Shown here piece by piece: positions 1,964 through 54,437 of a stretch of DNA of 64,000 nucleotides (position 1 is the first letter of the stretch; every line of letters begins with the position of its first letter). The translations under genes and the position numbers were made by a program. The stretch spans positions 64,001 through 128,000 of IMG/VR virus record IMGVR_UViG_3300005056_000001, one strand, 5' to 3'. The stretch is from a virus. The notes beneath the pieces were generated by a model. It searched no databases. It was not told the DNA's origin and was given only the letters and a program-made list of their open reading frames with translations.

Positions 1964-2986
1964 TTAGATGTTAATTTTTGCTGTTGGGTGTGTTAGCTGT
2001 ATTTTTAGGTGTGTTAGGTTTGGTGTTAGGCTGTTGTTCTCTAAACCTAAAAACTCTAGATTAGCCAAACTATCAACGTTTGGCGGAGTCGTTAATTGAT
2101 TGCCGTCTAGATATAACCACTTTAAACTTACCAATCCTTCAAGTATTGGTGGCGCAGTTAATTGATTGTCGTCTAAGTGCAAATGTCTTAACATGACCAA
2201 GCCTTCAAGTATCGGTGAAATTGTTAGTCTATTGTGGTTCAGGAATAACCGATCCAACTTTATCAAACCTTCAAGTATTGGTGGGTGATTCAGCTTGTTG
2301 TCCTCTAAATCCAACCTCTCCAAATTGACTAGACCATCAAGTATCGGTGGACGGCTCAAACTGTTGGTTGTTAAATCCAAACGCTTCAACTGTATCAAAC
2401 CTCCAAGTATTGGAGGTTCTATTAGTCGATTGTAGCTCAGATCTAAAGCCTCTAACCTGTACAATCCATTAAGAACAGGCGGGAGTGTTAGTTTGTTGTG
2501 GTTAATGTACACATGCTCTAGATTGACCAACCCCCCAAGAATGGGCGGTGTCGTTAATTTGTTGTTGGTCAAGCTTAATTTCTTCAGCTTGACCAAGCCC
2601 TCGAGGCTTGGTGGTGTAGTTAATCTGTTGTTGCTTAACACCAACCTCTTTAGGTTTACCAAACCGTTAAGAATAGGCGATGTCGATGAGGTTAGTTTAT
2701 TGTTGCTCAGATATAACTGTTCCAAATTAACCAATCCATCAAGAATTACTATGTGCTTTAGGTTGTTGTTTAAGTATAAACGCTTCAGTCTGAAAACTTG
2801 CTCAATCTTACAAAATATATCATCCGTGGCTTTAACCTTGTCATTACACAGTAGGAATTTATAGGTGTCGAGTATGTTCGGAAACACACTCAACACATCC
2901 ACGTTCCCGTTGCGAAAATTAGCCATTGCAAGATCTATATTTACATCGTCGCCTGATACTAGGAGTTGTTTTATTTTATTGTTCAT
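1964..2986 (-). CDS. LRR protein, PP-type family (about 12 repeats)
   Basis: 340 residues from ATG 2986 (MNNKIKQLLVSGDDVNIDLAM). I prefer this start over one 33 bp upstream because it matches the paralogs and leaves a 4-bp gap to the upstream gene. N-terminal module with GDDxNIxLAMxxFRNGNVDVLSVFP, then about twelve 22-residue repeats, then the tail LTHPTAKINI. No secretion signal. The second repeat is slightly expanded (SSTSPILNG). Confidence 0.9.
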   Translation of the reverse strand: MNNKIKQLLVSGDDVNIDLAMANFRNGNVDVLSVFPNILDTYKFLLCNDKVKATDDIFCKIEQVFRLKRLYLNNNLKHIVILDGLVNLEQLYLSNNKLTSSTSPILNGLVNLKRLVLSNNRLTTPPSLEGLVKLKKLSLTNNKLTTPPILGGLVNLEHVYINHNKLTLPPVLNGLYRLEALDLSYNRLIEPPILGGLIQLKRLDLTTNSLSRPPILDGLVNLERLDLEDNKLNHPPILEGLIKLDRLFLNHNRLTISPILEGLVMLRHLHLDDNQLTAPPILEGLVSLKWLYLDGNQLTTPPNVDSLANLEFLGLENNSLTPNLTHLKIQLTHPTAKINI

Positions 2987-2990
2987 TCTT

Positions 2991-3845
2991 TTAATCTTCC
3001 TTAAGGCTATACAAATCAAAAAATTTCACAAAATCAGCACAGTCCTCATTCGTTTTAAATTTTATTTCGGCTCCATTATTCGAGGCAAAAAATCGAATCG
3101 ACTTGACACAACTCTCCTTGTTTTCTAGCTTATAGGTCTGTATTACCATACTATCCCCGCTATTTTTTGGAATATCGGCATATAGTTCCGATATCACAGG
3201 AATCCCTGTCTCATACAGACTCAAGGCCCTAAGCAAGGCACGCAGTCTCCAACAACCGCTACTCTCTAGGGTGCTTTGATAAGTCCAAAGAGAATAAAGC
3301 CATACATCGGTTTTCAATGATTTACCTTTGATGTTCATTCTTTTTTGACTGTGTAAGACAGACTTTAAGTCTTCCTTGCACTTATGTACGCCGCTATCAA
3401 AAAGACCTTGTCCGTTTAATTGTTGGACATACACAGGAAGCAATTCGGTGGACAGATCCCTCATATTCACAAGCGTTGACTTTGTGTCACTGTCAATATT
3501 TAAATCAAGGTTATACGCATGGTTTAAGTATCTTGTGTATCTGTCAATGATGTCATAGACACGACACATGTGTATAATTTCCAAACGCTCGGACAGTTTA
3601 GAAAAATTATATTCCAAGACATCCTCCCTGTCGGAAACATCGTCACCCTTGATCCAAAATTTTTCGGGCGGGCAATTGTACTTGTGGAGCTCCATTAGTT
3701 GGTCAATATACTTTCTGTGGGCATCATTGGACTCGTTCAGCCCGTCCAAGTCGGCCTGAAGAATTGCCAAATATTCACGGTCTGACTTTGAGAAAATTGA
3801 TTTTTCTTCTAATTCAACATTTAAGATGTCGTTTAATAATGTCAT
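2991..3845 (-). CDS. Unknown protein, 284 aa
   Basis: Not recognised. Charged and mostly helical by composition, with two cysteines in its middle part (CPPEKF near residue 58 and CR near 94) and no signal peptide. Start and upstream stop overlap as TAATG at 3843-3847, so it is translationally coupled to the 123-residue gene before it and probably transcribed from the promoter at 4245-4276 with the downstream LRR genes. Confidence 0.8.
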   Translation of the reverse strand: MTLLNDILNVELEEKSIFSKSDREYLAILQADLDGLNESNDAHRKYIDQLMELHKYNCPPEKFWIKGDDVSDREDVLEYNFSKLSERLEIIHMCRVYDIIDRYTRYLNHAYNLDLNIDSDTKSTLVNMRDLSTELLPVYVQQLNGQGLFDSGVHKCKEDLKSVLHSQKRMNIKGKSLKTDVWLYSLWTYQSTLESSGCWRLRALLRALSLYETGIPVISELYADIPKNSGDSMVIQTYKLENKESCVKSIRFFASNNGAEIKFKTNEDCADFVKFFDLYSLKED

Positions 3846-4216
3846 TATTTTTTGTTTTGTGTTGATTCGAAATATGCCATATAAACCGCCTCTTGTTCTC
3901 TGAACGAGGAGTCTTTTAATTTATGGAAAAAGTTTTGGACACGTGTTTCGTGTTGGTTCCGTTTCCATGCCTCGATCTCGGTGTCAGATTCTAGCCTATA
4001 GAATGTTGGGTGCCATCCGTCGCCTCCAATTTGTTTGAATGTGATGGTGTTTTTATGCTCGGTGGGCGTTTCTATACGGTTTATTCTCTCGCCTGCCTTT
4101 GTGATTGCCTGAGTTTTGGTGACACGGTCAATTACATGCTTTTTGATGAATCCGCTTTTTGTTGTTTCGTAAAGAACCTCTCCAAGTTCTAGTATATGTC
4201 TCTTGATTGTGGGCAT
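3845..4216 (-). CDS. Unknown protein, 123 aa
   Basis: Not recognised. Basic N-terminal half (KSGFIKKHVIDRVTK) and a helical C-terminal half rich in Glu, Gln and aromatics. It is the first gene behind a good Bacteroidota-type promoter (4245-4276) and overlaps the next gene by one base, so it likely heads a minus-strand operon running toward the ATPase gene. Confidence 0.75.
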   Translation of the reverse strand: MPTIKRHILELGEVLYETTKSGFIKKHVIDRVTKTQAITKAGERINRIETPTEHKNTITFKQIGGDGWHPTFYRLESDTEIEAWKRNQHETRVQNFFHKLKDSSFREQEAVYMAYFESTQNKK

Positions 4217-4237
4217 TATATGATTTTATATTAATTT

Positions 4238-4380
4238 GATAGCACTAAGGTATGGAATAACATTCAAAAAACAAAATCGTTTTGTGGGAAATGTTGGTTT
4301 TAACGTTTTGTTAACGTTTTTTTGGTGGCTTTAGAGGGCTTTGTTGTGAACCCATCTTATTCCTTGATGGTGTATTGTGG
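4238..4380. repeat. Duplicated intergenic leader, copy 1
   Basis: About 143 bp closely matching 4887-5029. Shared blocks include GATAGCACTAAGGTATGG, a TTAACGTTTTGTTAA element, TTTAGAGGGCTTTGTTGTGA and CTTGATGGTGTATTGTGG. Each copy lies upstream of a minus-strand gene and contains its promoter. Nothing in it looks coding. Confidence 0.85.
4245..4276 (-). promoter_or_regulatory. Promoter TTTTG-N19-TACCTTAG
   Basis: On the minus strand TTTTG (4276-4272) is followed after 19 bases by TACCTTAG (4252-4245). This is close to the Bacteroidota consensus TTTG-N19-TAnnTTTG. The downstream gene starts at 4216. An almost identical promoter sits in the second leader copy. Confidence 0.6.
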
Positions 4381-4457
4381 GGTTGTGCATGGTTTTTTGT
4401 TATGGAGAGTTGACATCCGACGAGATCTAGTCTTGGTTTTGATGTATTAGTCGGTAG

Positions 4458-4865
4458 CTAAAAATTGATATAAAATCCTCCTATAGTTTGGATATGCATA
4501 TCGCCTGAACAGCTAGAATTAAGGTAGTAGCCCTCGGACAGCAGTTCGTTAAAGTAGTCCGTATCCAATGTCTCACCGTCAATAAGTTCCAATAGCTCTA
4601 GTAGTTCCTCTTCGGTTTCTCTTATAATATAGTGTGTATCGTCCCCTGATTCAAACGTCGCCTGAAAACCTTCCCTACTCCATGTTTTAGAATACCCCAA
4701 GTAGGTTATAATTAAATCTTTTTCGGCGGTCTCTGTCTTGAAATCTCTCTGAAATCTCCTAATGTCACATCCCGAAAGGTTTTCATAATTAACCATTTTC
4801 ATATTAGTTTTATGGTCTAACCAAGTATTCCTGTAGTTTTTAAGAGTTGTTTTTATTGTAGTCAT
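4458..4865 (-). CDS. Unknown protein, 135 aa
   Basis: Not recognised. Acidic in its second half (a Glu/Leu-rich stretch EEELLELLELIDGE near residue 85-98) with a C-terminal SSCSGDMHIQTIGG segment. It is a single gene flanked on both sides by copies of the duplicated leader and preceded by its own promoter. The flanking repeats suggest the unit arose by duplication of a leader or deletion/insertion between leaders. Confidence 0.75.
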   Translation of the reverse strand: MTTIKTTLKNYRNTWLDHKTNMKMVNYENLSGCDIRRFQRDFKTETAEKDLIITYLGYSKTWSREGFQATFESGDDTHYIIRETEEELLELLELIDGETLDTDYFNELLSEGYYLNSSCSGDMHIQTIGGFYINF

Positions 4866-5030: not shown

Positions 5031-5972
5031 TTAAATGACGATCTCTGCCGTGGGATGTGTTGGTGGGATGGTTAATTGGTTGTTTTTCAAGTTTAAATAC
5101 CTCAACTTAACCAACCCATCAAGATTGGGAGATGTTGCTAACAGATTGTTTTTTAAATCTATAAACTCCAAGTTGATTAGCGAATCAAGGTTTGGGGGAG
5201 AACTTAATTTGTTGTTTCTCAAAAATAACATCTCCAACTTAACCAAGTCTTCAAGATTCGGTGGGGTCGTTAGTTGGTTGACTCCCAAATTCAAACGCTC
5301 CAAGGTAACCAAACCGTTTAGTGTTGGTGTTTTGGTTAGTTGGTTATGGCTAAGGTATAAAATCTTTAAATTTACCAACCCTGAAGTGTTCGGGGTAATC
5401 GTCAATTGGTTATTGTCCAAGTTTAAATATTCCAACTTAACCAATCCTTCAAGATTTGGTGGGGCTGTCAGTTGATTAATCTTCAAGTTTAAATATTCCA
5501 AGTTTATCAAGCCTTCAAGTATTGGCGGTTTTGTCAAATCATTGTCCTCCAAATTTAAATACTCTAACCGATACAAATTAACCAAACCCTCAAGATTTGG
5601 AGCAATCGTTAATTTATTATTGGTCAAATTTAAAACCCTTAAGCTGACTAGACCTTTTAGTATTGGCGGGGTGGTTAAGTGGTTGTTATACAAAAATAAC
5701 AGCGTCAGGTTCACTAACCCTTCGAGTATTGGCGGGGTTGTTAGTTGCATATTGTCTAAAGATAGTGTTTTTATTTTAAACACCTGCTCAACCTTACAAA
5801 ACAAGTCGTCAGACACATTTACTTTGTTGTGACTTACCAAAAAATCATATGTGTCAAGTATCCTAGGAAAAATACTCAACACATCAACATTCCCGTTACG
5901 AAAATTAGCCATTGCGAGTTCTATGTTTGCATCGTCGCCTGTGGTTAGTAGTTGTTTTATTTGGTTGTGCAT
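5031..5972 (-). CDS. LRR protein, PP-type family (about 11 repeats)
   Basis: 313 residues. N-terminal module MHNQIKQLLTTGDDANIELAM... with FRNGNVDVLSIFP, then about eleven 22-residue repeats, one of them lengthened by three residues (VNLYRLEYL), and the tail THPTAEIVI. Its first 50 residues are nearly identical to those of the next LRR gene upstream (6002-7000), which points to recent duplication. No signal peptide. Confidence 0.9.
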   Translation of the reverse strand: MHNQIKQLLTTGDDANIELAMANFRNGNVDVLSIFPRILDTYDFLVSHNKVNVSDDLFCKVEQVFKIKTLSLDNMQLTTPPILEGLVNLTLLFLYNNHLTTPPILKGLVSLRVLNLTNNKLTIAPNLEGLVNLYRLEYLNLEDNDLTKPPILEGLINLEYLNLKINQLTAPPNLEGLVKLEYLNLDNNQLTITPNTSGLVNLKILYLSHNQLTKTPTLNGLVTLERLNLGVNQLTTPPNLEDLVKLEMLFLRNNKLSSPPNLDSLINLEFIDLKNNLLATSPNLDGLVKLRYLNLKNNQLTIPPTHPTAEIVI

Positions 5973-6001
5973 TGTTTTTTGTTGTTTTGTGTCGCCGTGG
6001 A

Positions 6002-7000
6002 TTAAATATCAATATGTGCCGTAGGGTGTGTTGGTGTACTTGTTAGTTGGTTGTTCTCTAAATCTAAACGATCCAAATTAACTAAAGTATCAATGATTGG
6101 TGATGTCGTCAGTCGGTTGTTGTATAAGTACAAAGCTCTTAGATTGGTCAATAATTTAAGATTAGGTGGTGTAGTTAATTGGTTATCGCCCAAATCCAAC
6201 CACATCAACCCTACCAAACCTTCAATAATTGTTGTGTTGGTTAATCGGTTACAATTCAAATACAAACAAGTCAAGTTAATTACCCCCCTAAGATCAGGAG
6301 AGCTCGTCAATACGTTACTGCTCAAATCTAACCACACTAGGTTAACCAATCCTTCAAGAATTAGTGGTGTCGTCAGTCGGTTCTCGCTCAAATCCAAACG
6401 CTTCAATTTTGCTAAATTCATAAGCTTTGGTGGTGTCGTTAATCGGTTTCTGCCTAGGGTTAAACGCTCCAAATTCACTAACGTATTAAGTGTTGGTGAA
6501 TCTGTTAGTTTGTTACTGCCTAAGTTTAAACCCTTTAAATTAACCAATCCATCAACTATTGGCGGATTAGTCAGTTGGTTATTGGTCAAATATAGAACCT
6601 CTAACCTTACCAACTTATCAAGAATCGGCGAAGTGGTTAACTTGTTATTATTCAAGTATAACCGCTTTAAATTAACCAACCCTTCAAGTATTGGCGGATT
6701 CGTTAATTGGTTCTTCCCCAAGTCCAAAACCTCCAAATTAATCAATCCCTCAAGTATTGGCGGACTAGTTAGTCGGTTACTAACTAAACTTAATCGTTTC
6801 AATCTAAAAACCTGCTCAACCTTAGAAAATAAGTCATCCGTGGATTTTACCTTGGCGTGCCATAGCAAGAATTTATACGTGTCAAATATCCTAGGAAAAA
6901 TACTCAACACATCAACATTCCCATTACGAAAATTAGCCATTGCGAGTTCTATGTTTACATCGTCGCCCGTGGTTAGTAGTTGTTTTATTTGGTTGTGCAT
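6002..7000 (-). CDS. LRR protein, PP-type family (about 12 repeats)
   Basis: 332 residues, starting MHNQIKQLLTTGDDVNIELAM like its downstream paralog, then about twelve 22-residue repeats and the tail THPTAHIDI. Repeats 8 and 9 (SSPDLRGVIN, NTTIIEGLVG) diverge from the PP consensus. A 326-residue open frame on the opposite strand is a by-product of the repeats. A perfect hairpin (7024-7062) separates it from the upstream gene. Confidence 0.9.
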   Translation of the reverse strand: MHNQIKQLLTTGDDVNIELAMANFRNGNVDVLSIFPRIFDTYKFLLWHAKVKSTDDLFSKVEQVFRLKRLSLVSNRLTSPPILEGLINLEVLDLGKNQLTNPPILEGLVNLKRLYLNNNKLTTSPILDKLVRLEVLYLTNNQLTNPPIVDGLVNLKGLNLGSNKLTDSPTLNTLVNLERLTLGRNRLTTPPKLMNLAKLKRLDLSENRLTTPLILEGLVNLVWLDLSSNVLTSSPDLRGVINLTCLYLNCNRLTNTTIIEGLVGLMWLDLGDNQLTTPPNLKLLTNLRALYLYNNRLTTSPIIDTLVNLDRLDLENNQLTSTPTHPTAHIDI

Positions 7001-7023
7001 TGTTTTTATTATTTTTGATTTGA

Positions 7024-7062
7024 GGCCCTAGAACACAAGACTCGTTAATGTGTTCTAGGGCC
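7024..7062 (-). terminator. Perfect 14-bp stem hairpin between genes
   Basis: GGCCCTAGAACACA (7024-7037) pairs perfectly with TGTGTTCTAGGGCC (7049-7062) around an 11-base loop. It lies six bases after the stop of 7068-7556 and 24 bp before the next start. There is no clear U-run on either strand, so it could be a processing or stability hairpin rather than a terminator. Confidence 0.6.
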
Positions 7063-7067
7063 TGTGT

Positions 7068-7556
7068 CTATTCGGTGTCTTCAAAAAGTCTTAGATCTTT
7101 TGACTGTACAAGATATTTTAGATCTTTTATCTGTACAAGATGTGGCACATTACCTTTAAGCACAACACATGTCTTGTCAGTCATGAATTTAACAACACAA
7201 ACAGAACCTAATTTCAGCGTGTGAGGTTTCGAACCACTTTCGAAATTGCTATTCCCAATCACCACAACACTATTCCCAATCTCAATCCTCGGAACAACGG
7301 AAACAACGGGAATATTCCCAATAACATCCCCAACACAATCAACCTCCTCAATCATATACTCCCCACCCGTAAACACGGTCTCAATCGCTTGGAGCTTTTC
7401 GATGTAAATCTCAAGATTTGACATCATTGCAACAAGGGCCTCTTTTTGTGTTGCCCCATATCCTCCGATATGTTCGTTTATGTCGGAGAGGTAGGCCTCA
7501 AATGATTGATGCTTTCCTTTGCCGTCGTTGTGTAGTTTGATTTTTATGTTTTCCAT
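7068..7556 (-). CDS. Unknown protein with HicB-like N-terminus
   Basis: 162 residues. Residues 17-57 (SFEAYLSDINEHIGGYGAT, then EALVAMMSNLEIYIEKL) follow the beta-beta-beta-alpha pattern of HicB/DUF1902-like antitoxin folds, but no HicA toxin lies next to it. The C-terminal half is beta-rich (EIGNSVVVIG, GSVCVVKFM), SH3-like by feel. Two bases separate it from the next gene upstream, so they share a transcript. The HicB relation is a guess. Confidence 0.75.
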   Translation of the reverse strand: MENIKIKLHNDGKGKHQSFEAYLSDINEHIGGYGATQKEALVAMMSNLEIYIEKLQAIETVFTGGEYMIEEVDCVGDVIGNIPVVSVVPRIEIGNSVVVIGNSNFESGSKPHTLKLGSVCVVKFMTDKTCVVLKGNVPHLVQIKDLKYLVQSKDLRLFEDTE

Positions 7557-9658: not shown

Positions 9659-10498
9659 TTAAAAAATGACTGTGACATCAGGAAGCAATTTTTGAATCCT
9701 GTCCTGTTCGTCAATGGAAAGGTGACACTCATGAAGGATTAGTCTTGTTAATTTTTTCAATTCCTTGATACTGTTGGGAATTGTGTTTATGGGATTATGA
9801 CTAAGATCCAAAATTTCAAGTGATTCTAGGCCCGATATCGCCTGTGGTATTTCTTTGATGCCATTACCCGACAAATCAAGCAGCTCCAATGATTTTAGCC
9901 CACACAGGCAATTAGGAATAACATTAATATTGTTAGACCCTAGCTCAAGTGCCGCAAGATTGACAAGCTTTTCTATCCCTGAAGGAACAAGCTTTAGGTT
10001 GTTGTGAGATAAACGAATATCTGCCAAGTTTACACAGTCGTATAGCTCAACAGGAAACTCCTCGAATTTATTTCGACTTAGGTCAATCTCCTCCAACCAA
10101 CACAGCGCACTCAAGTCAGGAAGGCTTGCGAGCTTATTTCTTTGTGCCAATAATGTCCTTAGTCCTCCAAACATATTCAACCCATGAGGGAAAGAATCAA
10201 GTCCGCACCTGCTCACGTCCAAACCTTCTTGCTTTCTCAACACATCATAAGAGAGTCCTGTAATCTCGGACAGTTCCCTGTGTTTGTATGCACTTGATAC
10301 ATTTTCGGGATAGACATAATAATCAACCTCCTTTAAATTTGTTGGGTGGTGTATAACAACCTTTCCGTCATACTCGCACAGCTTCCCTATGATATGACTG
10401 CCGTCTTTTAGGTATGCCAATACATTGTCTCCAAAAATAACATTCCATGTGTTACTTTTGTTTAGTACGGGCACGTGTATTTCTATTTTTGCTTTCAT
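9659..10498 (-). CDS. LRR protein, LPxxIG type, with beta-rich N-terminus
   Basis: 279 residues. Residues 1-95 are a non-LRR beta-rich domain (KIEIHVPVLNK, FGDNVLAYLKDGSHIIGKL, VDYYVYPENV). Then come about seven 23-residue LRRs (LEEIDLSRNKFEEFP and similar) and the C-cap IDEQDRIQKLLPDVTVIF, a cap common in Bacteroidota LRR proteins. It pairs with the neighbouring 10517-11314 gene, which has the same architecture. Confidence 0.88.
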   Translation of the reverse strand: MKAKIEIHVPVLNKSNTWNVIFGDNVLAYLKDGSHIIGKLCEYDGKVVIHHPTNLKEVDYYVYPENVSSAYKHRELSEITGLSYDVLRKQEGLDVSRCGLDSFPHGLNMFGGLRTLLAQRNKLASLPDLSALCWLEEIDLSRNKFEEFPVELYDCVNLADIRLSHNNLKLVPSGIEKLVNLAALELGSNNINVIPNCLCGLKSLELLDLSGNGIKEIPQAISGLESLEILDLSHNPINTIPNSIKELKKLTRLILHECHLSIDEQDRIQKLLPDVTVIF

Positions 10499-19763: not shown

Positions 19764-20585
19764 ATGAAGAGCAAGAAAACACTAATAAAAGAATATATTG
19801 AACAGGATTATACAATAGGCGATCATGTCACTGTGCGTGGTTTAGACGTTAGCAATAAAGCGGCATGGGGACATTCTACGGATATCGTTGGTATTGGTTA
19901 TTGTGGCGTTTTTGTGCAACCATTTCCATACAAGGAGCCTATGTTTGTCAAGCTGTGCGACGTAATGAAAACAACCCGCCATATCGGCTATAACCCATTC
20001 CCCAAAAAACCTATTCGGGTTAGAAGCTTTGATATAGATATCGACATGCTGCTAAAGAGGTGTATGCCCGACACCACGAGCGAATATTTCACGGAAAAAA
20101 CAAATATGCCGATTCGTGTATGTAACCATGACCCTATTGTTATCGACAAGGATGGCAAGATCGTGACCTACCAAAGAGAGCTTTGTTGGAAACCATGGCA
20201 AAAAAAGGGTCTGATTGATTCTGTTTATGACGGAATGGATATCGGACTGTTTACTGTACGAAAACGTTTTTTCGATGAGCTCGATGTTCTTGCAAAAAGA
20301 GGTGTGGATGTTCTTGCGTTTAGCGATGTCGTGGACGGGAAGCAGCGTCTTAACACCCTCAAAGAATTTGTGGACGGGAAATTTAAGGACAATAACGGCA
20401 TGTATTACCATCAAATGTCCGACAATTCACAACACAAATTTATGAGCTGTATGAATTTTACATATGCAGAATTACCCGAAAATTCATTGGACAAGGATGT
20501 TATCGAACAGTTCCTTAAGGTCAACAACACGGGCGTTCCTGTGTCAAAGAAGCACATAAATTATGTCAAGGAAATAAATATATAG
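19764..20585 (+). CDS. DUF262 (ParB/Srx-like) protein
   Basis: 273 residues. Residues 130-200 carry the DUF262 hallmarks: YQREL at 136-140, then a W..KxLIDS-type helix, and DGKQR at 191-195 followed by LNTLKEFVDGKF. DUF262 proteins are ParB/sulfiredoxin-superfamily NTP-binding or nuclease-like proteins, often in defence systems. This one lacks the C-terminal HNH (DUF1524) domain and instead has an N-terminal beta-rich 120-residue part (TIGDHVTVRGLDV, GYCGVFVQPF). The start of the next gene lies 1 bp after its stop. A second DUF262 gene is at 43822-44367. Confidence 0.8.
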   Translation: MKSKKTLIKEYIEQDYTIGDHVTVRGLDVSNKAAWGHSTDIVGIGYCGVFVQPFPYKEPMFVKLCDVMKTTRHIGYNPFPKKPIRVRSFDIDIDMLLKRCMPDTTSEYFTEKTNMPIRVCNHDPIVIDKDGKIVTYQRELCWKPWQKKGLIDSVYDGMDIGLFTVRKRFFDELDVLAKRGVDVLAFSDVVDGKQRLNTLKEFVDGKFKDNNGMYYHQMSDNSQHKFMSCMNFTYAELPENSLDKDVIEQFLKVNNTGVPVSKKHINYVKEINI

Positions 20586-21657: not shown

Positions 21658-21903
21658 TTATAGCCAACCAAAAAACGAGGCAGCAACCTCGCCTATGTGC
21701 TCGAGTCCCAAATCTTCATCCATATCCTCTGTATAAAAGGCTCCGATTTTATTGTCCAATGTATCATATCTGTCGGCCTTGGCCTTGTATTTTTGGGCCT
21801 TGGCTTCGAGGTCGTCGAAGCGTGTGTTTAGTGTGTCGTTGATCTCCTCGTAAGACATTTTCTTTAGGGTCTCAATCTCGATTTGTTTTTTAATGTTTTG
21901 CAT
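21658..21903 (-). CDS. Small coiled-coil protein, 81 aa
   Basis: Residues 1-50 are a charged helix with heptad-like spacing (LEAKAQKYKAKADRYDTLDNKI), followed by an acidic segment (YTEDMDEDLG) and a hydrophobic end (ASFFGWL). It overlaps the end of the methyltransferase gene by 14 bp. Function unknown. Confidence 0.7.
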   Translation of the reverse strand: MQNIKKQIEIETLKKMSYEEINDTLNTRFDDLEAKAQKYKAKADRYDTLDNKIGAFYTEDMDEDLGLEHIGEVAASFFGWL

Positions 21904-22681
21904 TGTTTGGTTTTTTATTGAACAAGAATAGTCGCTTGTTCATTGTTTCGAAATGTTGCTCATCCTTTTCTATTAGCAGGAACTCTCTATTTGTGTTCAA
22001 ACATGCCATACCAACAGTTCCACTACCCGCAACATTATCCAATACGATTTCTCCTTCTTTGGTATATGTGTTTATTAGATATTCGCATAACTCCAAAGGT
22101 TTTTGTGTGGGATGTAACTGACCAACATTGTGTTGTGAGTATTCTAGTATTTGTCTTGGGTAATTTGTATACTCGATTCTACGTTCTAGTTTATGACTTT
22201 CCCTTGTTGAATTAACCCCCTTTCCGTCACCATACAGCTTTGGACGCTTCCATGTTTTATTTACTTCAACTAGGTCTTGTGGGTAATACGGCATATTGTT
22301 CTTGCTACCATTGGCAGTTTTCCCGCTGCTAAACACGGCTATTTCCTCTATATCCTTTAGGGGTTTTAATTTTGCATTGACAAACCCCGATGGTCTTGAC
22401 TTTTTCCAATACCACATATATTTAAATTCGTCTATATTGCTACCGACCAATAATGATGTAAATGGTTGTTGGCAAAACAGAACGATAGGCCCGTTTGGCT
22501 TGATTATTCGTTGATACTGCTCCCATAACGGAACAAATGGGAGGATAGTATCCCATTTGCATGCTGTTGTTCCGTATGGCAAGTCTGCAAATATCATGTC
22601 AATACTCTGACTTTTAATGTTTTTCATCAATTCAAGCGAGTCGCCTAGCCATGCCTCGCTTGATCCGTATTTCTTAATCAT
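21890..22681 (-). CDS. DNA methyltransferase, beta class (N6-adenine/N4-cytosine)
   Basis: 263 residues. The catalytic motif DLPYG (33-37, a DPPY variant) lies near the N-terminus, and the AdoMet-binding DNVAGSGT (215-222) near the C-terminus, preceded by HPTQKP (190-195). This catalytic-before-FxGxG order defines the beta class of amino-methyltransferases (CcrM/HinfI-like). There is no restriction endonuclease next to it, so it is an orphan, most likely protecting or regulating the element's own DNA. The recognition site cannot be read from the sequence. It is followed by the small coiled-coil gene and preceded by the SbcCD fusion. Confidence 0.93.
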   Translation of the reverse strand: MIKKYGSSEAWLGDSLELMKNIKSQSIDMIFADLPYGTTACKWDTILPFVPLWEQYQRIIKPNGPIVLFCQQPFTSLLVGSNIDEFKYMWYWKKSRPSGFVNAKLKPLKDIEEIAVFSSGKTANGSKNNMPYYPQDLVEVNKTWKRPKLYGDGKGVNSTRESHKLERRIEYTNYPRQILEYSQHNVGQLHPTQKPLELCEYLINTYTKEGEIVLDNVAGSGTVGMACLNTNREFLLIEKDEQHFETMNKRLFLFNKKPNNAKH

Positions 22682-22699: not shown

Positions 22700-25600
22700 T
22701 TAAATATGATAGCCCCCAAAATCACCCATCAAAAACTCGATCGAATTGTCTCCAATATCCGTGAGAACATGGTCAACCACAATGAGATTTTTCCTTTGTG
22801 AAATAGAAAGTAATAATTTTTTGTATAACTCCCTGAAGTCAACGGCATGTTTGTTCTTTAGGTCTTCGCCCGAACTTAGTTGTCCTGATAACTCGTCAAT
22901 AAAACGAAGGTTTATGTTCCATTCGTCGTTTAGTGAGTCGATAACTTCCATTAATGACAGTGCCCCCATGTTTATCTCCATCCCGCTAATGTGGTCAATC
23001 GGAAGTTCTTTGACCTGACCATTTCTTTTGTCTACCTTTACCAATTCTCCGTTGGCAAATCTGAGCGCAAACGGGAACATTTCAAGCATGTCTGCCATTC
23101 GCTTGTTTATGATATTGGCAATGTTGTTAAACACATATAGTGGCAATCCGTTGCCCGAAACAATTTTCTTGAATAGATTCATTGTCTTTTTGCCAATCGA
23201 ACGGGCATCAAGCTGTTTAATGAAATTCTTGCACCTTCCAAGTTCGTTCTCGTTCTCGGTTATTTTGACTTCCAACAACTCGTTGTTGTGGACAAGGTTT
23301 GTTATCTGTTCCTCGCCGTCTTTGATTTTGGTTTCCAACACATTGCAAGTTTCTTTTACCTCTTTAATCTTGTCCTCGAGACGCTTGTTAAAATTGTAAC
23401 TGTGTGTAACCGTCTCGAATTCTTTGGCAGACTCCTTGATTTCCACAAGAACCTCTGTTTTTCTGTTCTCTAGGAGCGTCTTTTGGTCTCCACGACTCAA
23501 CCAAAGGTTGGACAGCTTTTCTTGCTCTGTCAGCAACTTTTGGGCCTTTGTTAGTCCGTCCTCGGTGGTCAAAAGTTCTTCTTCGTATTTGGCGATTAAA
23601 TTTTCGTGATCAACAACACTTTCACTGACCCTTTTGTATTCGGAAGAGATTTTTTGTATAGACACATCGTTTGTTCGGGCCTTGTTGATCATATCCTTTA
23701 GATTGATTTTTTCTAGCTCGGTCTCGACTGTTTTTTTGTTTAGTTTCAGTTGGTTTATTTCGTCTGTGTGGACGACCAACAAAAACTTGTCTAGTACAGC
23801 CTGTCTTCTGTTTATTTCCTGAGTCAATTCCTTGGATTGATTTCTTAGTTCGATAATCTTGTCCGATGTTATGATCCCTAGTATTGCCTCAATTTTGTCG
23901 AATTGCTTTGATTTGACAATGTCCTTCAGAACCGTGATTGTATTTTTAGTCTCGGTCTTTTTGGTGTCATGAACAACAAGAACATAATCATTTACCAAGG
24001 ATGATTTTGTGTCCATGTCTGCCTTGAGTCGAACGATGTGTTCTTCAATTTTTAGCAGCTCGGTTGTTTCGATACCATGCGGATCCCCACAATTTTTACA
24101 CAACTCGTTTTTGTACATCTCGACCTTCGAAGTCTCTGACGCAATTAGTTTTTCGACATCATCCAATTCTCGGTTGTGGGTATCCAATCCTTTTTGGCTC
24201 GAAGATTCCTCTTTCTCCAATTTAGAATAATACTCGTTCAGCTCCTCCAACTTGTCAAGCTGCATTCTTGATGCTGTTTGATACATTTCGGATTGTATCA
24301 AAGACTTGTTCTGAGTAGAATTATTTAGGTACGTTTCGTATTCACGCTCTAATATACTCAGGGATTTGACTGATTCTTCTTGTTCACTTTCCAATACATG
24401 AATTGATTTTTCAATCTCGACAATCTTTTTTGACTGACCAACATATATAACATTATAGGACTCGGTTTCTTCCTCGCTTATTTCACGTTTTCTGTCGGTT
24501 CCTTGTGTGTGCCAATATCCTTGCTTTTTAATGCTGTCACTATGTTTTGTTCTTGCAGACAACAGCCTTGTTTTTATGACAGGCAAACCCTCTACATACC
24601 CATCAACCTCTTCTGTGTACTTGTCAAACAGTTTTCTGTCGAACGAGTCCTGACCCTCATACATGTCAATTTTTCCGTTGATTGTGTCCAAGTCGTTGTT
24701 GAGCGATTCTAGTCTGCCCTGAAAAGAGAAATACTTTTGGGCAATCTCTTTGTTTATTTGTTGTTCTTGGTCTTCCAAGTACTCGTCGAATTCCTTGAGT
24801 TCTTCTGATAATGAATCAATCTCCGAAAATATCTCAAGATGTTTTTTGTTGTTGTCGGCTACCTGATCATTAATTGACAATATTTCGCTTGTACATGTGG
24901 CAATTTTCGATTCATAGAAAGTTTGTTTGCCTTCGGGATTCGGAAACTTTTCCATATACTTGTCCTGTACCACACTAAAGTTTTCGCCAAGTTTTTCAAT
25001 GGCACCAATCCCGACTCTCCTTAGTATTTCGGTCTGTAACTTGTCGGATGGTTGGTGCAGAAACAAGTCAAGCGATGCAATATTTTGATAAATATCCTTG
25101 ATTTCCGCAAACGGGAACAATTGGTCAAGATACTCCTGTGCATCTTCGTATGTTTCGACAGACCCGTTCTTGGTTATTGTAATGGTCTCGACAGGTTTTT
25201 TGCCTTCAAATGTGACCACACGATCCACCACATACGTATCCCCGTTCAGAACAGAGGTTGTACACACTCTCATTTGGTCGTCGTTGAGGTAATTGCGTAT
25301 TCTGTTTAGGTTGTATGCCTTTCTGTTGCTGCGTTCCTTGCCTGTTATTTTTCCGCTCTTACACCAAGACAGTGCCTTTATGACAGTGGACTTTCCTGCA
25401 CCATTAGTGCCCCTAATTGTTGTGAGTGGTTTGTTTAGCGGAACATTGGCCTCTCGGATACCCAAGAAATTATATATTTCTATATTCAGGAATGTAAGAC
25501 TTTTCTTTGGCTTGGTCAATAGTATTTCTTTGAATGACTCGGATACCAAGTCACGAAGAATTTCTTTTGCCTTGTCTTTGTCGTCTAACCCCCTTGATGT

Positions 25601-26803
25601 GTCCACGATTCTGTCCACAAAAGAAAGCGATGCCTCCAATAGCTCCTGTTTTGAGAACTCTGATTTTTCGTCAAAATTCTGTTCTTCCTCATTAAACACA
25701 ACCTCGTAATTACCCTCCATCTTAACACTTAGACAGTTTGTATTTTCTTCGATGCGTTGTTTCATAATAATTGTGTCGGCAGACGACAGCGAAGACTTAA
25801 TCTTTACATGTGAAGGTATCGGCAACGGCAACGAATCAAAAAGCTTTGTCATATTAACCGTCACACGATTTATGCAGGGTTCGATTGCTGTAAAATTACA
25901 GGTTACTGTCTCGCCTAGATTGTTGAGTTCCCATACCATGTAACCATGCTGTTTGCGTCCTTCTTGGTAACACCAATCATTGGCATAATAATCACCCTCC
26001 CCAAAACCACGCATGGTAACAGACGAAGAGTATGCAAAAATCTTGGGTTGTCCACTTGGTGTGGTGCCAATGTCATGAATCTGCGGTGCATGAATGTCTC
26101 CCGCAAGAACACTGTTTACGTTGTCAAAAGACTTGATGTCAACGGTTCCGATCTTGTCATGTACCTTGCTGTCAAAGCCAATCGAATGACCAATGGTTGC
26201 ATCATGGTACAGTGACACATTGGCCACATTGGGGTCGGTTGGTTCTGTGTAGATGTAGGGCTGCTCAAGGAAAGGCAATTGTTTGTTATAATGGGAATGA
26301 ACAATGAAATTGTACACAACACCATTTACCTCCTTTGGGTAAATATCGGTATACTTGTAATAGTTCACACGAGGGTTGTTGAGCGTGTTTACCACATTGT
26401 CAATTTCGTCAATCGGTGCCAATATCTTTCCGTCTGTTGCCAAACATTGTATATTGGACGATTTTTGCATCTCATGGTTCCCGTTGATGATTATAATTAT
26501 ACCCTCGAATGCCTTTAATATCCTGCCCAAAAGGCTAATGAACACCCCGACCTCGTTTGAGTTGATGGTGCCCCGATTCCCGTTCTCGAATATGTCGCCT
26601 GTTATAACAACAATATCGGGCTGCTCTTTTCGAATAGCCGATTCTAATTTTTTGTTGGTGTATTCGTATTCGTCATATCTGTCATGGCGATTTGACACAA
26701 CCTCGATCTGTTGGTCACCGAACTGAAATATCTTTATGTGTGCATTAAGGTTTGGATTTTTATAGTTTAATAGAACATCTACTTTTTCGTTAATGGCTTC
26801 CAT
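22700..26803 (-). CDS. Fused SbcD/Mre11-SbcC/Rad50-like protein
   Basis: About 1367 residues from ATG 26803 (MEAINEKVDVLL). Alternatives are ATG 26830 or TTG 26866; the chosen ATG has the usual A/T-rich leader. Residues 25-300 are a calcineurin-like phosphoesterase with GDQQ (29-32), GDIF (69-72), GNHE (108-111) and GDIH (235-238). Residues 440-1367 are an SMC/Rad50-type ATPase: Walker A GTNGAGKS (465-472), long coiled coils, zinc hook CKNC (902-905), Walker B FIDE and switch VDH near the end. It corresponds to SbcD plus SbcC, or T4 gp47 plus gp46, in one chain; these act as a DNA-end nuclease in recombination and repair. Two usual metal ligands are changed (see findings). Operon with the methyltransferase. 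Confidence 0.92.
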   Translation of the reverse strand: MEAINEKVDVLLNYKNPNLNAHIKIFQFGDQQIEVVSNRHDRYDEYEYTNKKLESAIRKEQPDIVVITGDIFENGNRGTINSNEVGVFISLLGRILKAFEGIIIIINGNHEMQKSSNIQCLATDGKILAPIDEIDNVVNTLNNPRVNYYKYTDIYPKEVNGVVYNFIVHSHYNKQLPFLEQPYIYTEPTDPNVANVSLYHDATIGHSIGFDSKVHDKIGTVDIKSFDNVNSVLAGDIHAPQIHDIGTTPSGQPKIFAYSSSVTMRGFGEGDYYANDWCYQEGRKQHGYMVWELNNLGETVTCNFTAIEPCINRVTVNMTKLFDSLPLPIPSHVKIKSSLSSADTIIMKQRIEENTNCLSVKMEGNYEVVFNEEEQNFDEKSEFSKQELLEASLSFVDRIVDTSRGLDDKDKAKEILRDLVSESFKEILLTKPKKSLTFLNIEIYNFLGIREANVPLNKPLTTIRGTNGAGKSTVIKALSWCKSGKITGKERSNRKAYNLNRIRNYLNDDQMRVCTTSVLNGDTYVVDRVVTFEGKKPVETITITKNGSVETYEDAQEYLDQLFPFAEIKDIYQNIASLDLFLHQPSDKLQTEILRRVGIGAIEKLGENFSVVQDKYMEKFPNPEGKQTFYESKIATCTSEILSINDQVADNNKKHLEIFSEIDSLSEELKEFDEYLEDQEQQINKEIAQKYFSFQGRLESLNNDLDTINGKIDMYEGQDSFDRKLFDKYTEEVDGYVEGLPVIKTRLLSARTKHSDSIKKQGYWHTQGTDRKREISEEETESYNVIYVGQSKKIVEIEKSIHVLESEQEESVKSLSILEREYETYLNNSTQNKSLIQSEMYQTASRMQLDKLEELNEYYSKLEKEESSSQKGLDTHNRELDDVEKLIASETSKVEMYKNELCKNCGDPHGIETTELLKIEEHIVRLKADMDTKSSLVNDYVLVVHDTKKTETKNTITVLKDIVKSKQFDKIEAILGIITSDKIIELRNQSKELTQEINRRQAVLDKFLLVVHTDEINQLKLNKKTVETELEKINLKDMINKARTNDVSIQKISSEYKRVSESVVDHENLIAKYEEELLTTEDGLTKAQKLLTEQEKLSNLWLSRGDQKTLLENRKTEVLVEIKESAKEFETVTHSYNFNKRLEDKIKEVKETCNVLETKIKDGEEQITNLVHNNELLEVKITENENELGRCKNFIKQLDARSIGKKTMNLFKKIVSGNGLPLYVFNNIANIINKRMADMLEMFPFALRFANGELVKVDKRNGQVKELPIDHISGMEINMGALSLMEVIDSLNDEWNINLRFIDELSGQLSSGEDLKNKHAVDFRELYKKLLLSISQRKNLIVVDHVLTDIGDNSIEFLMGDFGGYHI

Positions 26804-26862: not shown

Positions 26863-27210
26863 TCAAACTTTATTGTCCCGAACAGTTCTTTTGTTTTCAA
26901 TGGTGCTCATTTTAATAATAACACTGTCGCTCTGTGTTTCCACATCGGATACCAAGTACAATAAATCATTGTTCACAACCCTCACATGTTTATGGAGTTC
27001 CTTTGGGAAGGTTGTGCCCTTTCTGAAGAAATCAAGATTCTTTAAGAATGCCCCACATTCTATTTCGAACCTCAGCGTAGTCACAATTGCCCCACTCTTG
27101 CAGGAAAAGTATTGATTGTACCTGACGCTTTCAATTGTTGTCTCATTAAAAGAGTTGTATAGAACAGAATCAACTGTCAGACTCCTGTTGTTTTTAAGTG
27201 TTAGTCGCAT
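26863..27210 (-). CDS. Unknown protein, 115 aa
   Basis: Starts MRLTLKNNRSLTVDSVLYNSF, basic and beta-rich (GAIVTTLRFEIECGAFL). Not recognised. It overlaps the end of the upstream gene by 10 bp and directly precedes the SbcCD fusion, so it may be a partner or simply operon cargo. Confidence 0.7.
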   Translation of the reverse strand: MRLTLKNNRSLTVDSVLYNSFNETTIESVRYNQYFSCKSGAIVTTLRFEIECGAFLKNLDFFRKGTTFPKELHKHVRVVNNDLLYLVSDVETQSDSVIIKMSTIENKRTVRDNKV

Positions 27211-42330: not shown

Positions 42331-43422
42331 ATGGAAACCAACACAAAAACACCGACAGTAACAGTAAACCTAGACAGCAGCGAAATGTCAAATGTTATCC
42401 TGCACAAGGTAGGAAACAAGTCAATGGACGAGGGAATGCGTATTGCAACAAACGAGCTAAAAATGACCGATGGTCTGAATGAGTCGTTGTTTAGCTATTT
42501 TGTAGGAGGATTTAAATTCGACACATTGTATGAGTTTACGGATGAGCACGACCTTTCTATGAATTCGGTATTCAAGATTTGCAAGAGAATCTTTGAAGAA
42601 ACAGACAAGGAACAAAATTTTTACAAAGGCTCTATTGATATCCTTAGACACCTCTATGATATGTCAAACAATCCCACCATTAAAGGAGGCGATCTGTATG
42701 TTGCATATTTCAATAATTGCGACTGTGACGGTGAATCGACTGATGCTATCGGAATTTTCAAGGCCGACAAGCGTGTCAATTTTGTTAATCCGAAATTTGA
42801 CGAGGACGAGAATGAATGGGCCGTGGATATTCGTGAGGGATTCGACATGACAAAAATCGACAAGGGTTGTATTATCTTCAACACCCAAGCCGAAACAGGA
42901 TATCGTATTGCCAACATCAAACTAAAAGGATTAATGGCAAGTGCATGGAATTTGGATTTCATGAACATTTCCCGTGTACAGGACGATTCTTACCAAACAC
43001 AGGTCTACATGGATATGTGCAAAGATTTTGCCAACAAGGCCTACAAAGAAGACAACAAAGACGTAAAGGTTGACTTCCTGAATCGTACCAAGGATTATTT
43101 CGAAAACTACAAAGAACATACCGACGAGGATTTCAAGGAAGTGGTGTTCGAGGACTCTGAAAAGAAAGAAGCCTTTGCGGAGCATGTCACCGAGACACGT
43201 GACAGCCTAGAACTTGAGGACGAAGACAACGGCGAATTCTTGATCTGTGCCAACACGGTAAAGAAGGCCAAAAAAGGATTCAAAAACAATATTCTGCTAG
43301 ACACCGAGGTGGAGATTAAAATCTTGTCTTCACAGGCGGTTTCTGATGGGTATGTTGAGCGTGGACACGACGACGAAAAGGACATGGACTTCTACAAGGT
43401 TTATTTTAACAGCGAGAAATAG
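42331..43422 (+). CDS. NdpA/YejK-type nucleoid-associated protein
   Basis: 363 residues, matching the Bacteroidota form of the 37-kDa nucleoid-associated protein along its length: VILHKVGNKSMDEG near 23, LFSYFVGGFK near 55, a KGGDLYVAYFNNCDCDG segment near 118, KGCIIFNTQAETGYRIA near 178, SYQTQVYMDMCKDF near 220 and a C-terminal GYVERGHDDEKDMDFYKVYF. Family members bind double-stranded DNA and nucleoids. Here it may coat or organise element or host DNA. Such a gene is more usual on chromosomes than on phages. Confidence 0.9.
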   Translation: METNTKTPTVTVNLDSSEMSNVILHKVGNKSMDEGMRIATNELKMTDGLNESLFSYFVGGFKFDTLYEFTDEHDLSMNSVFKICKRIFEETDKEQNFYKGSIDILRHLYDMSNNPTIKGGDLYVAYFNNCDCDGESTDAIGIFKADKRVNFVNPKFDEDENEWAVDIREGFDMTKIDKGCIIFNTQAETGYRIANIKLKGLMASAWNLDFMNISRVQDDSYQTQVYMDMCKDFANKAYKEDNKDVKVDFLNRTKDYFENYKEHTDEDFKEVVFEDSEKKEAFAEHVTETRDSLELEDEDNGEFLICANTVKKAKKGFKNNILLDTEVEIKILSSQAVSDGYVERGHDDEKDMDFYKVYFNSEK

Positions 43423-52618: not shown

Positions 52619-53320
52619 ATGAAGGACACACAAAAGATATGGGACTTGATCTATACGGCCCAAGAAGTAAATATAAACCTTGCGTTTACCTTGGCAGAGG
52701 CCAAAGGAATAGCATTAGATTTAAGTGCGTATCACGAGATTTTCGGGTGGTTACAGACCCATGAAACCGAGACTACAGAACATAAATCAGACCTAGAAAT
52801 ATTGATATATGTATTGACACTAGAAACGGTGACAGTGCCCTGTAAAGGACTGACCGAAATACCAAAATCAATAGGAAAACTTAGATCGCTTAAATGTCTT
52901 ATTTTGGGGTGGAATAAATTGACATACCTTCCTGATTCAATCGGAGAATTGAGCAACCTAGGAATGTTGCATGTCTTAGGAAACAAACTCACAAACCTGC
53001 CCGACACAATCGGGAATCTAACATTATTAGAATATCTATACGTTGGCGGTAACCAATTAACAGAACTTCCCGAAACGATTGGTGGTCTTAAAAATCTAAC
53101 AGAATTGTGCGTCAATAATAATAGATTGGAAACCATTCCAAAGACTATACTAAACCTAAAATATTTAGAAAAGATTGACATCAAAATGAACAACATAAAA
53201 GATATTCCTGACAGGCTTGGTTATCTTCCAAACCTGCGATGGTTACATCTTGGCAAAAAAGTATCCGAGAAGGTGAAAAACAACCTTACAAGCAACAAGA
53301 ACACAAATTGGTATGACTGA
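52619..53320 (+). CDS. LRR protein, LPxxIG type
   Basis: 233 residues. Module IWDLIYTAQEVNINLAFTLAEAKGIALDLSAY, then about six regular 23-residue LRRs (LTYLPDSIGELSNLGML, LTELPETIGGLKNLTEL). Starts 3 bp after the previous stop and overlaps the next gene by 8 bp. Confidence 0.88.
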   Translation: MKDTQKIWDLIYTAQEVNINLAFTLAEAKGIALDLSAYHEIFGWLQTHETETTEHKSDLEILIYVLTLETVTVPCKGLTEIPKSIGKLRSLKCLILGWNKLTYLPDSIGELSNLGMLHVLGNKLTNLPDTIGNLTLLEYLYVGGNQLTELPETIGGLKNLTELCVNNNRLETIPKTILNLKYLEKIDIKMNNIKDIPDRLGYLPNLRWLHLGKKVSEKVKNNLTSNKNTNWYD

Positions 53321-54437
53321 TCAACAAAAGATAATGTGTCTTATTAAGACAGGAGATTTGACCAACATAAAAATGGGTCTTATGATGGCCAAATCAAACA
53401 AAATTGATTTGGACTTGTCCGAATATTGGGCCATACATCATTTTTTGGTTGTGTACAAAGAGTTGAAGCCTGCAAAAAATGATTACCACATGCTTGTATT
53501 GTTAATGGGCGTGACACACCTACACTTACACGATATCAGGATACTGCATATTCCTGAATCCTTTGGTTGTCTTCATAATCTAAAAACTTTTGGTATTAGA
53601 AACGCAGGAATTAGTAGCCTTCCTGATTCTATCGGTAATCTCAAAAACTTGGACAGTATTAGGATATCACGCACAAACCTAACACATCTCCCTGAATCAA
53701 TATGCGCAATCACAGGGTTGGTCACTATATTTATAGAGGACAATAGTCTGTCTTGTCTGCCAAAAGACATTGGTAATCTGACCAATATTAAACGCCTGAT
53801 GATTATTGAGGAAAATATCAAAACGCTTCCCGAATCCATAGGGAATATGTCGGCATTGGAAAATCTGTCAATTCAAAATTGCTTTCTTGAAAGTCTTCCT
53901 GAATCAATAGGCGATTTACAGGGCTTGTGTGTGTTGTATTTAGAAGGAAATAAACTCACAACAATACCCAAAACCATAGGCAAATTACAAAAATTGGAAT
54001 TATTAAAAGTTTCTGATAATTTGTTACAATCGCTTCCTGATACGTTATTCGACCTAATTAATTTGCGTCATTTAAGCGCAATGAAATGTGGTTTAGAAGA
54101 CCTACCAAAAGACATTGGCAGACTAATCAATCTTGAGTATCTAGGGCTTGGTGGTAATAAACTAACTTCCTTGCCAAAAAGCATTGCCAAGCTGTCTAAA
54201 ATGGAGACTCTGATTTTGGCAAGGAACGAAATAAGCATGTTCCCCAAGGAAATAACCTCACTAAGCAAACTAAAATATCTAAGACTCCGTTTTAACAACA
54301 TAAAACAATTCCCAAAAGAAATAGTCAATTTAAAAGAATTAATTAGTCTATCGGTAGACATGAATCCTGCAACATACGAACATATATGTTGGCTCATAGA
54401 TATATTGCCACACACAAATATTAATTACAGAAACTAA
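53313..54437 (+). CDS. LRR protein, LPxxIG type, longest of the tandem set
   Basis: 374 residues. Module IMCLIKTGDLTNIKMGLMMAKSNKIDLDLSEY, about eleven to twelve 23-residue LRRs (LPESIGNMSALENLSIQNC, LPDTLFDLINLRHLSAMKC) and a cap ending DILPHTNINYRN. Last LRR gene of the cluster; small unrelated genes follow at once. Confidence 0.9.
   Translation: MTDQQKIMCLIKTGDLTNIKMGLMMAKSNKIDLDLSEYWAIHHFLVVYKELKPAKNDYHMLVLLMGVTHLHLHDIRILHIPESFGCLHNLKTFGIRNAGISSLPDSIGNLKNLDSIRISRTNLTHLPESICAITGLVTIFIEDNSLSCLPKDIGNLTNIKRLMIIEENIKTLPESIGNMSALENLSIQNCFLESLPESIGDLQGLCVLYLEGNKLTTIPKTIGKLQKLELLKVSDNLLQSLPDTLFDLINLRHLSAMKCGLEDLPKDIGRLINLEYLGLGGNKLTSLPKSIAKLSKMETLILARNEISMFPKEITSLSKLKYLRLRFNNIKQFPKEIVNLKELISLSVDMNPATYEHICWLIDILPHTNINYRN

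Follow-up and report, generated by a model that had tools for sequence, protein, structure and literature searches.

A one-chain Mre11-Rad50 protein in a jumbo phage, with Gln and Asp in place of two metal-site histidines

In a jumbo phage with relatives among the phages of Bacteroidota, Mre11 and Rad50 (SbcD and SbcC) form one polypeptide, which is likely to be a working MR nuclease with a function in recombination-linked replication. The gene lies at positions 22700-26803 on the minus strand of the window, the 64,000-nucleotide stretch of DNA analysed here, which corresponds to positions 64001-128000 of a 368-kb virus record (IMGVR_UViG_3300005056_000001). Translation from the ATG at 26803 yields 1367 amino acids in a single frame with zero internal stops, and the frame remains open 5' of this codon as far as a TTG at 26866. 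An Mre11/SbcD nuclease comes first and is followed by a Rad50/SbcC ATPase with a presumed coiled coil and a CxxC hook, so that the one-frame arrangement proposed from the sequence alone holds. This order within an uninterrupted chain characterizes the described class of Mre11/Rad50 fusions (PMC3175470), to which the window protein belongs. Residues 21-1355 match positions 5-1356 of the 1376-position profile phrog_35725 (E 3.4e-72); as this covers nearly the whole chain, the one-chain family was already present in databases. The linker between the two parts (residues 346-439; 25487-25768) is stop-free and, judged from its position, may hold the helix-loop-helix through which Mre11 binds Rad50 (compare PMC3175470).

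The nuclease and its capping domain span residues 22-345 (25769-26740, minus strand, as for all features of this gene). Pfam Metallophos matches residues 24-239 with 32.9 bits (cut-off 21.5), and an AlphaFold2 model of residues 21-350, obtained from a 33-sequence input (pLDDT 85.8, pTM 0.88), predicts a calcineurin-like fold with a capping domain. The best 50 PDB fold matches of this model are exclusively Mre11/SbcD proteins, headed by S. aureus SbcD (7dog; E 1.3e-13, TM 0.65). Three of the characteristic motifs are intact: motif II (G69-D70; 26594-26599), motif III (GNHE, residues 108-111; 26471-26482) with the ligand N109 and the catalytic H110, and the His of motif IV (H200; 26204-26206). 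Two others depart from the canonical pattern. Motif I, D30-Q31-Q32 (26708-26716; GDQQ at residues 29-32), retains the Asp of D-x-H and lacks its His, in the window protein as in six other members of its clade, and motif V reads G235-D236-I237-H238 (26090-26101) where GHxH is expected, with the last His preserved. When a family profile was aligned with solved SbcD/Mre11 proteins, the family D-I-H lay over D-W-H and GDIH over GHLH or GHIH, which places Q32 in the column of the motif I His and D236 in that of the first GHxH His; the canonical residues are therefore not found elsewhere in the chain. The proposal of the sequence-only reading that two metal-binding histidines are replaced by Gln and Asp is thus borne out. 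The equivalent residues of P. furiosus Mre11, His10 and His206, hold metal 1 and metal 2, respectively.

The ATPase part displays the split ABC lobes of Rad50/SbcC, and Pfam AAA_23 matches residues 441-709 with 51.4 bits (cut-off 27). Walker A (GTNGAGKS, residues 465-472; 25388-25411) is located in the N-lobe (about residues 440-620; 24944-25486), while Walker B (FIDE, residues 1301-1304; 22892-22903) and the H-loop His1345 (22769-22771) could be assigned by alignment in the C-lobe (about residues 1200-1367; 22703-23206). A predicted zinc-hook-like CKNC motif (residues 902-905; 24089-24100) lies within the presumed coiled-coil region, and C902 and C905 are invariant in the clade alignments. 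The ABC signature reads SGME (residues 1273-1276; 22976-22987), whereas cellular Rad50 has an SGGE-type sequence, and the same column in relatives shows SGM(E/Q), GGM, SGK, SGF, SGA, SGS and SGW. Within the clade, the column of the Rad50 Q-loop Gln varies (NQ, NA, NS or NI), which weighs against a fully working enzyme.

One-chain homologues, whose existence had been put forward as a check, were detected by tblastn in metagenomic huge phages and in phages PAU, PTm1, PTm5, pT24, MA9V-1 and MA9V-2. Scanning IMG/VR with a profile uncovered one-chain proteins by the dozen, about 1020-1324 amino acids long, as well as unfused SbcD-like proteins of about 260 amino acids. A single-sequence scan of viral contigs gave no match, whereas alignment-based scans of viral contigs succeeded; a scan of genome contigs returned no cellular relatives. 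Conservation was assessed across 36 non-redundant viral nuclease domains, the window protein included. The scan patterns omitted motif I and accepted either D or H in motif V, so the counts at residues 32 and 236 are not simply built in. In this set, from which relatives lacking GNH or G[DH]IH would be missing, all of motif II and the ligand or catalytic residues D30, D70, N109, H110, H200 and H238 are identical in 36/36. Position 236 is Asp in 35 of the 36, unfused relatives among them, and His in PAU; at position 32, 28 sequences have His and eight have Gln. Directly before motif I, the window protein carries Gln27 (26723-26725) at a position that is occupied by His in 33 of the 36 aligned sequences (I-x-H-x-[A/S/G]-D) and is not among the known metal ligands.

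A maximum-likelihood tree, rooted at its midpoint only and with long branches for the window protein and MA9V-1, unites seven Gln-form sequences on a single branch (support 100/99). These come from jumbo phages: PAU, PTm1/PTm5, pT24, MA9V, two metagenomic contigs and the window protein. Of the 324 nuclease columns, 33 show no variation within this clade, and all six remaining ligand and catalytic residues are among these 33, a coincidence with a rough probability of ~1e-6 if columns are taken as random. The window protein shares only 20-24% identity with the other members, and recurrence of the fusion and of both substitutions over such distances indicates that they are not errors or oddities of the record. 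By the same token, the constancy of the remaining site residues makes a working nuclease likelier than a relic. By analogy with P. furiosus Mre11, metal 1 would be bound by D30, Q32, D70 and H238, and metal 2 by D70, N109, H200 and D236, with the nuclease probably active with two metals. Asp is still able to bind metal at the place of His206; Gln is a weaker ligand, and a His-to-Gln exchange at a ligand is expected to weaken metal binding, which counts against a fully working enzyme. Altered metal binding in the window protein is plausible. The metal site, poorer in histidine than the canonical one, as in the closest relatives, most likely belongs to a mildly unusual yet working enzyme.

Compatible with a working nuclease, and a refinement of that reading, is the possibility that the active enzyme has a changed metal preference or product, although we lean against it. 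Such a protein may use Mg2+ instead of Mn2+, have a loosely bound metal 1, or be biased towards one of the exo- and endonuclease activities. The composition of the site would fit, with two His, three Asp, one Asn and one Gln against the usual four His, two Asp and one Asn. Q32 moreover splits perfectly by clade, being present in 7/7 Gln-clade members of the full-length set and replaced by His in 16/16 sequences elsewhere; it arose a second time, independently, in L074, and it travels largely together with Y43 (in place of H), E73 (in place of H) and R313 (in place of F/Y). Against this idea, E73 occurs in six of the seven Gln-clade members (L009 has Gln) and also in the D-x-H relative L037, and thus is no strict compensator, and no Gln-clade-specific His replacing H32 was found in the clade alignments. 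His171, considered as a stand-in for H32 (H169/H171 in the window protein, W-x-H in relatives, between motifs III and IV), was rejected, since D-x-H relatives have this His too and L008 carries Gln instead; the suggested substitution by another His thus found no support.

It is doubtful, if conceivable, that the jumbo-phage clade rebuilt the Mre11 di-metal site for a different metal use or cutting mode. The rebuilding would add the His-to-Gln exchange at metal 1 to the viral His-to-Asp exchange at metal 2, with linked changes at Y43, E73 and R313, and the resulting nuclease would perhaps be suited to the phages' own DNA. The DNA of PAU has been reported to be extensively modified (PMC7824862).

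A nuclease-dead fusion, in which the Mre11 part only binds ends and the Rad50 part tethers DNA, appears improbable. In its favour, the window protein carries replacements of two of the seven usual ligands, and the whole clade shares Q32. Against it, neither H110 nor any of the other ligands varies among the 36 divergent sequences, although most of the remaining columns do. Asp, in addition, binds metal well, and even unfused viral SbcD-like proteins normally carry it. Furthermore, the fusion is the sole SbcD and SbcC detected in the 368-kb record, which is possibly incomplete: it contains no second Metallophos match that could supply the activity, and AAA_23 gave one match above the cut-off and one further, partial match below it. 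The alternative of a mere ATPase or DNA tether, raised in the sequence-only reading, is therefore disfavoured. An assembly or annotation artefact joining two genes can be dismissed: the record is metagenome-derived, but the chain runs without a stop or frame change, and the same full-length architecture in cultured, independently assembled phages already refutes such a joining.

The closest known counterparts of the window protein, a working one-chain nuclease in our reading, are the members of phrog_35725, annotated as 'metallo-phosphoesterase', from Sphingomonas phage PAU (gp288), Tenacibaculum phages PTm1, PTm5 and pT24 and Chryseobacterium phages MA9V-1/2. They share the one-chain architecture (1301-1326 amino acids compared with 1367), the D-x-Q form of motif I, mostly GDIH in motif V, the CxxC hook and an SGM or GGM signature. 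PAU differs by retaining GHIH, and the window protein alone has Q27 at the near-invariant His. E. coli SbcCD, T. maritima and P. furiosus Mre11-Rad50 and T4 gp46/gp47 resemble the fusion in fold, motifs and domain partners but are encoded by two separate genes, and the aligned cellular SbcD/Mre11 proteins have His at both substituted positions. Yoshida, Claverie and Ogata described Mre11/Rad50 fusions in 2011 from mimivirus, a Bacillus phage, bacteria, plasmids and eukaryotes, reported that they abound in viral metagenomes and argued for viruses as their principal reservoir (PMC3175470). These proteins, including those of mimivirus (R555) and Bacillus phage 0305phi8-36, likewise combine an N-terminal Mre11 with a C-terminal Rad50 in one chain. 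R555 has Asp at the position of P. furiosus Mre11 His206 (PMC3175470) and, by its published description, keeps the DXH of motif I, in contrast to the Gln of the window clade. With the fusion and the Asp substitution known since 2011, and GDxH the viral norm, the novelty initially claimed for this gene was overstated. Gln in motif I as a clade trait is a modest variant, of which a literature search on Mre11/SbcD found no description. The result represents a refinement and no new system. One-chain Mre11-Rad50 proteins nevertheless represent a central DNA-repair machine in a naturally compact form, and the Gln clade, with a supposedly essential ligand swapped and all others but one fixed, provides a natural test of which metal and His each Mre11 activity needs.

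Nearly all jumbo phages possess SbcC/SbcD, which belong to their core machinery for recombination (PMC7824862), and T4 gp46/47 carries out end resection for recombination-dependent replication (PMC3175470), from which we infer the same role for the fusion. Two copies would most likely dimerise to form the usual MR complex, with ATP closing the two Rad50 heads and the hook joining or closing the coiled coils. The Mre11 part would then cut DNA ends to create 3' overhangs for recombination-linked replication and for repair of the large linear genome, an end processing like that of T4 gp46/47. With both parts in one chain, the 1:1 ratio and the docking would be built in, where separate proteins depend on binding for them. 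The weakest link for a recombination role is that the 368-kb record yielded no RecA-family match. Its TerL is nearest to those of Tenacibaculum phages pT24 (46%) and PTm1 (37%), which also carry the Gln-form fusion, followed by Sphingomonas phage PAU (31%). Megablast of 25 kb of the window against a phage collection found no close relative and no near-identical DNA.

Several homologues are interrupted. In L013, L015, L016-L018 and L074, the fusion reading frame breaks just after the Gly-Lys of Walker A, with a Cys and about 35 further residues (5956-7293 and 11263-12648 in L015; 5944-7260 and 7523-9814 in L074). Downstream in L015 and L074, the two inspected on this point, lies an intein-like reading frame that may carry the continuation, in L015 after a gap of about 4 kb with other reading frames between. 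This arrangement resembles a naturally split intein whose short N-half sits in the Rad50 P-loop. A different interruption was seen in L092 (LR756508; 2950-7172), where a CxxC-rich reading frame (3671-4585), which may represent an intron or another mobile element together with an endonuclease, splits the nuclease domain of the homologous gene.

Some neighbouring genes of the window also deserve mention. Immediately downstream of the fusion gene, and in the same orientation, comes a gene for an N4/N6 DNA methyltransferase (PF01555, E 5.7e-27; 21890-22681, minus strand). On the plus strand, 19764-20585 encodes a 273-residue protein with a GmrSD_N domain (E 6e-13), and 42331-43422 a viral homologue of the NA37 nucleoid-associated protein (PF04245, E 1.5e-28). 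At least five proteins matching phrog_6688, a family of unknown function, are present (1964-3019, 5031-5972, 6002-7000, 9659-10498 and 53313-54437), the last of which, the one searched with Pfam, has a strong leucine-rich-repeat match (Pfam LRR_14, E 2.4e-46) that is seemingly unusual for a phage.
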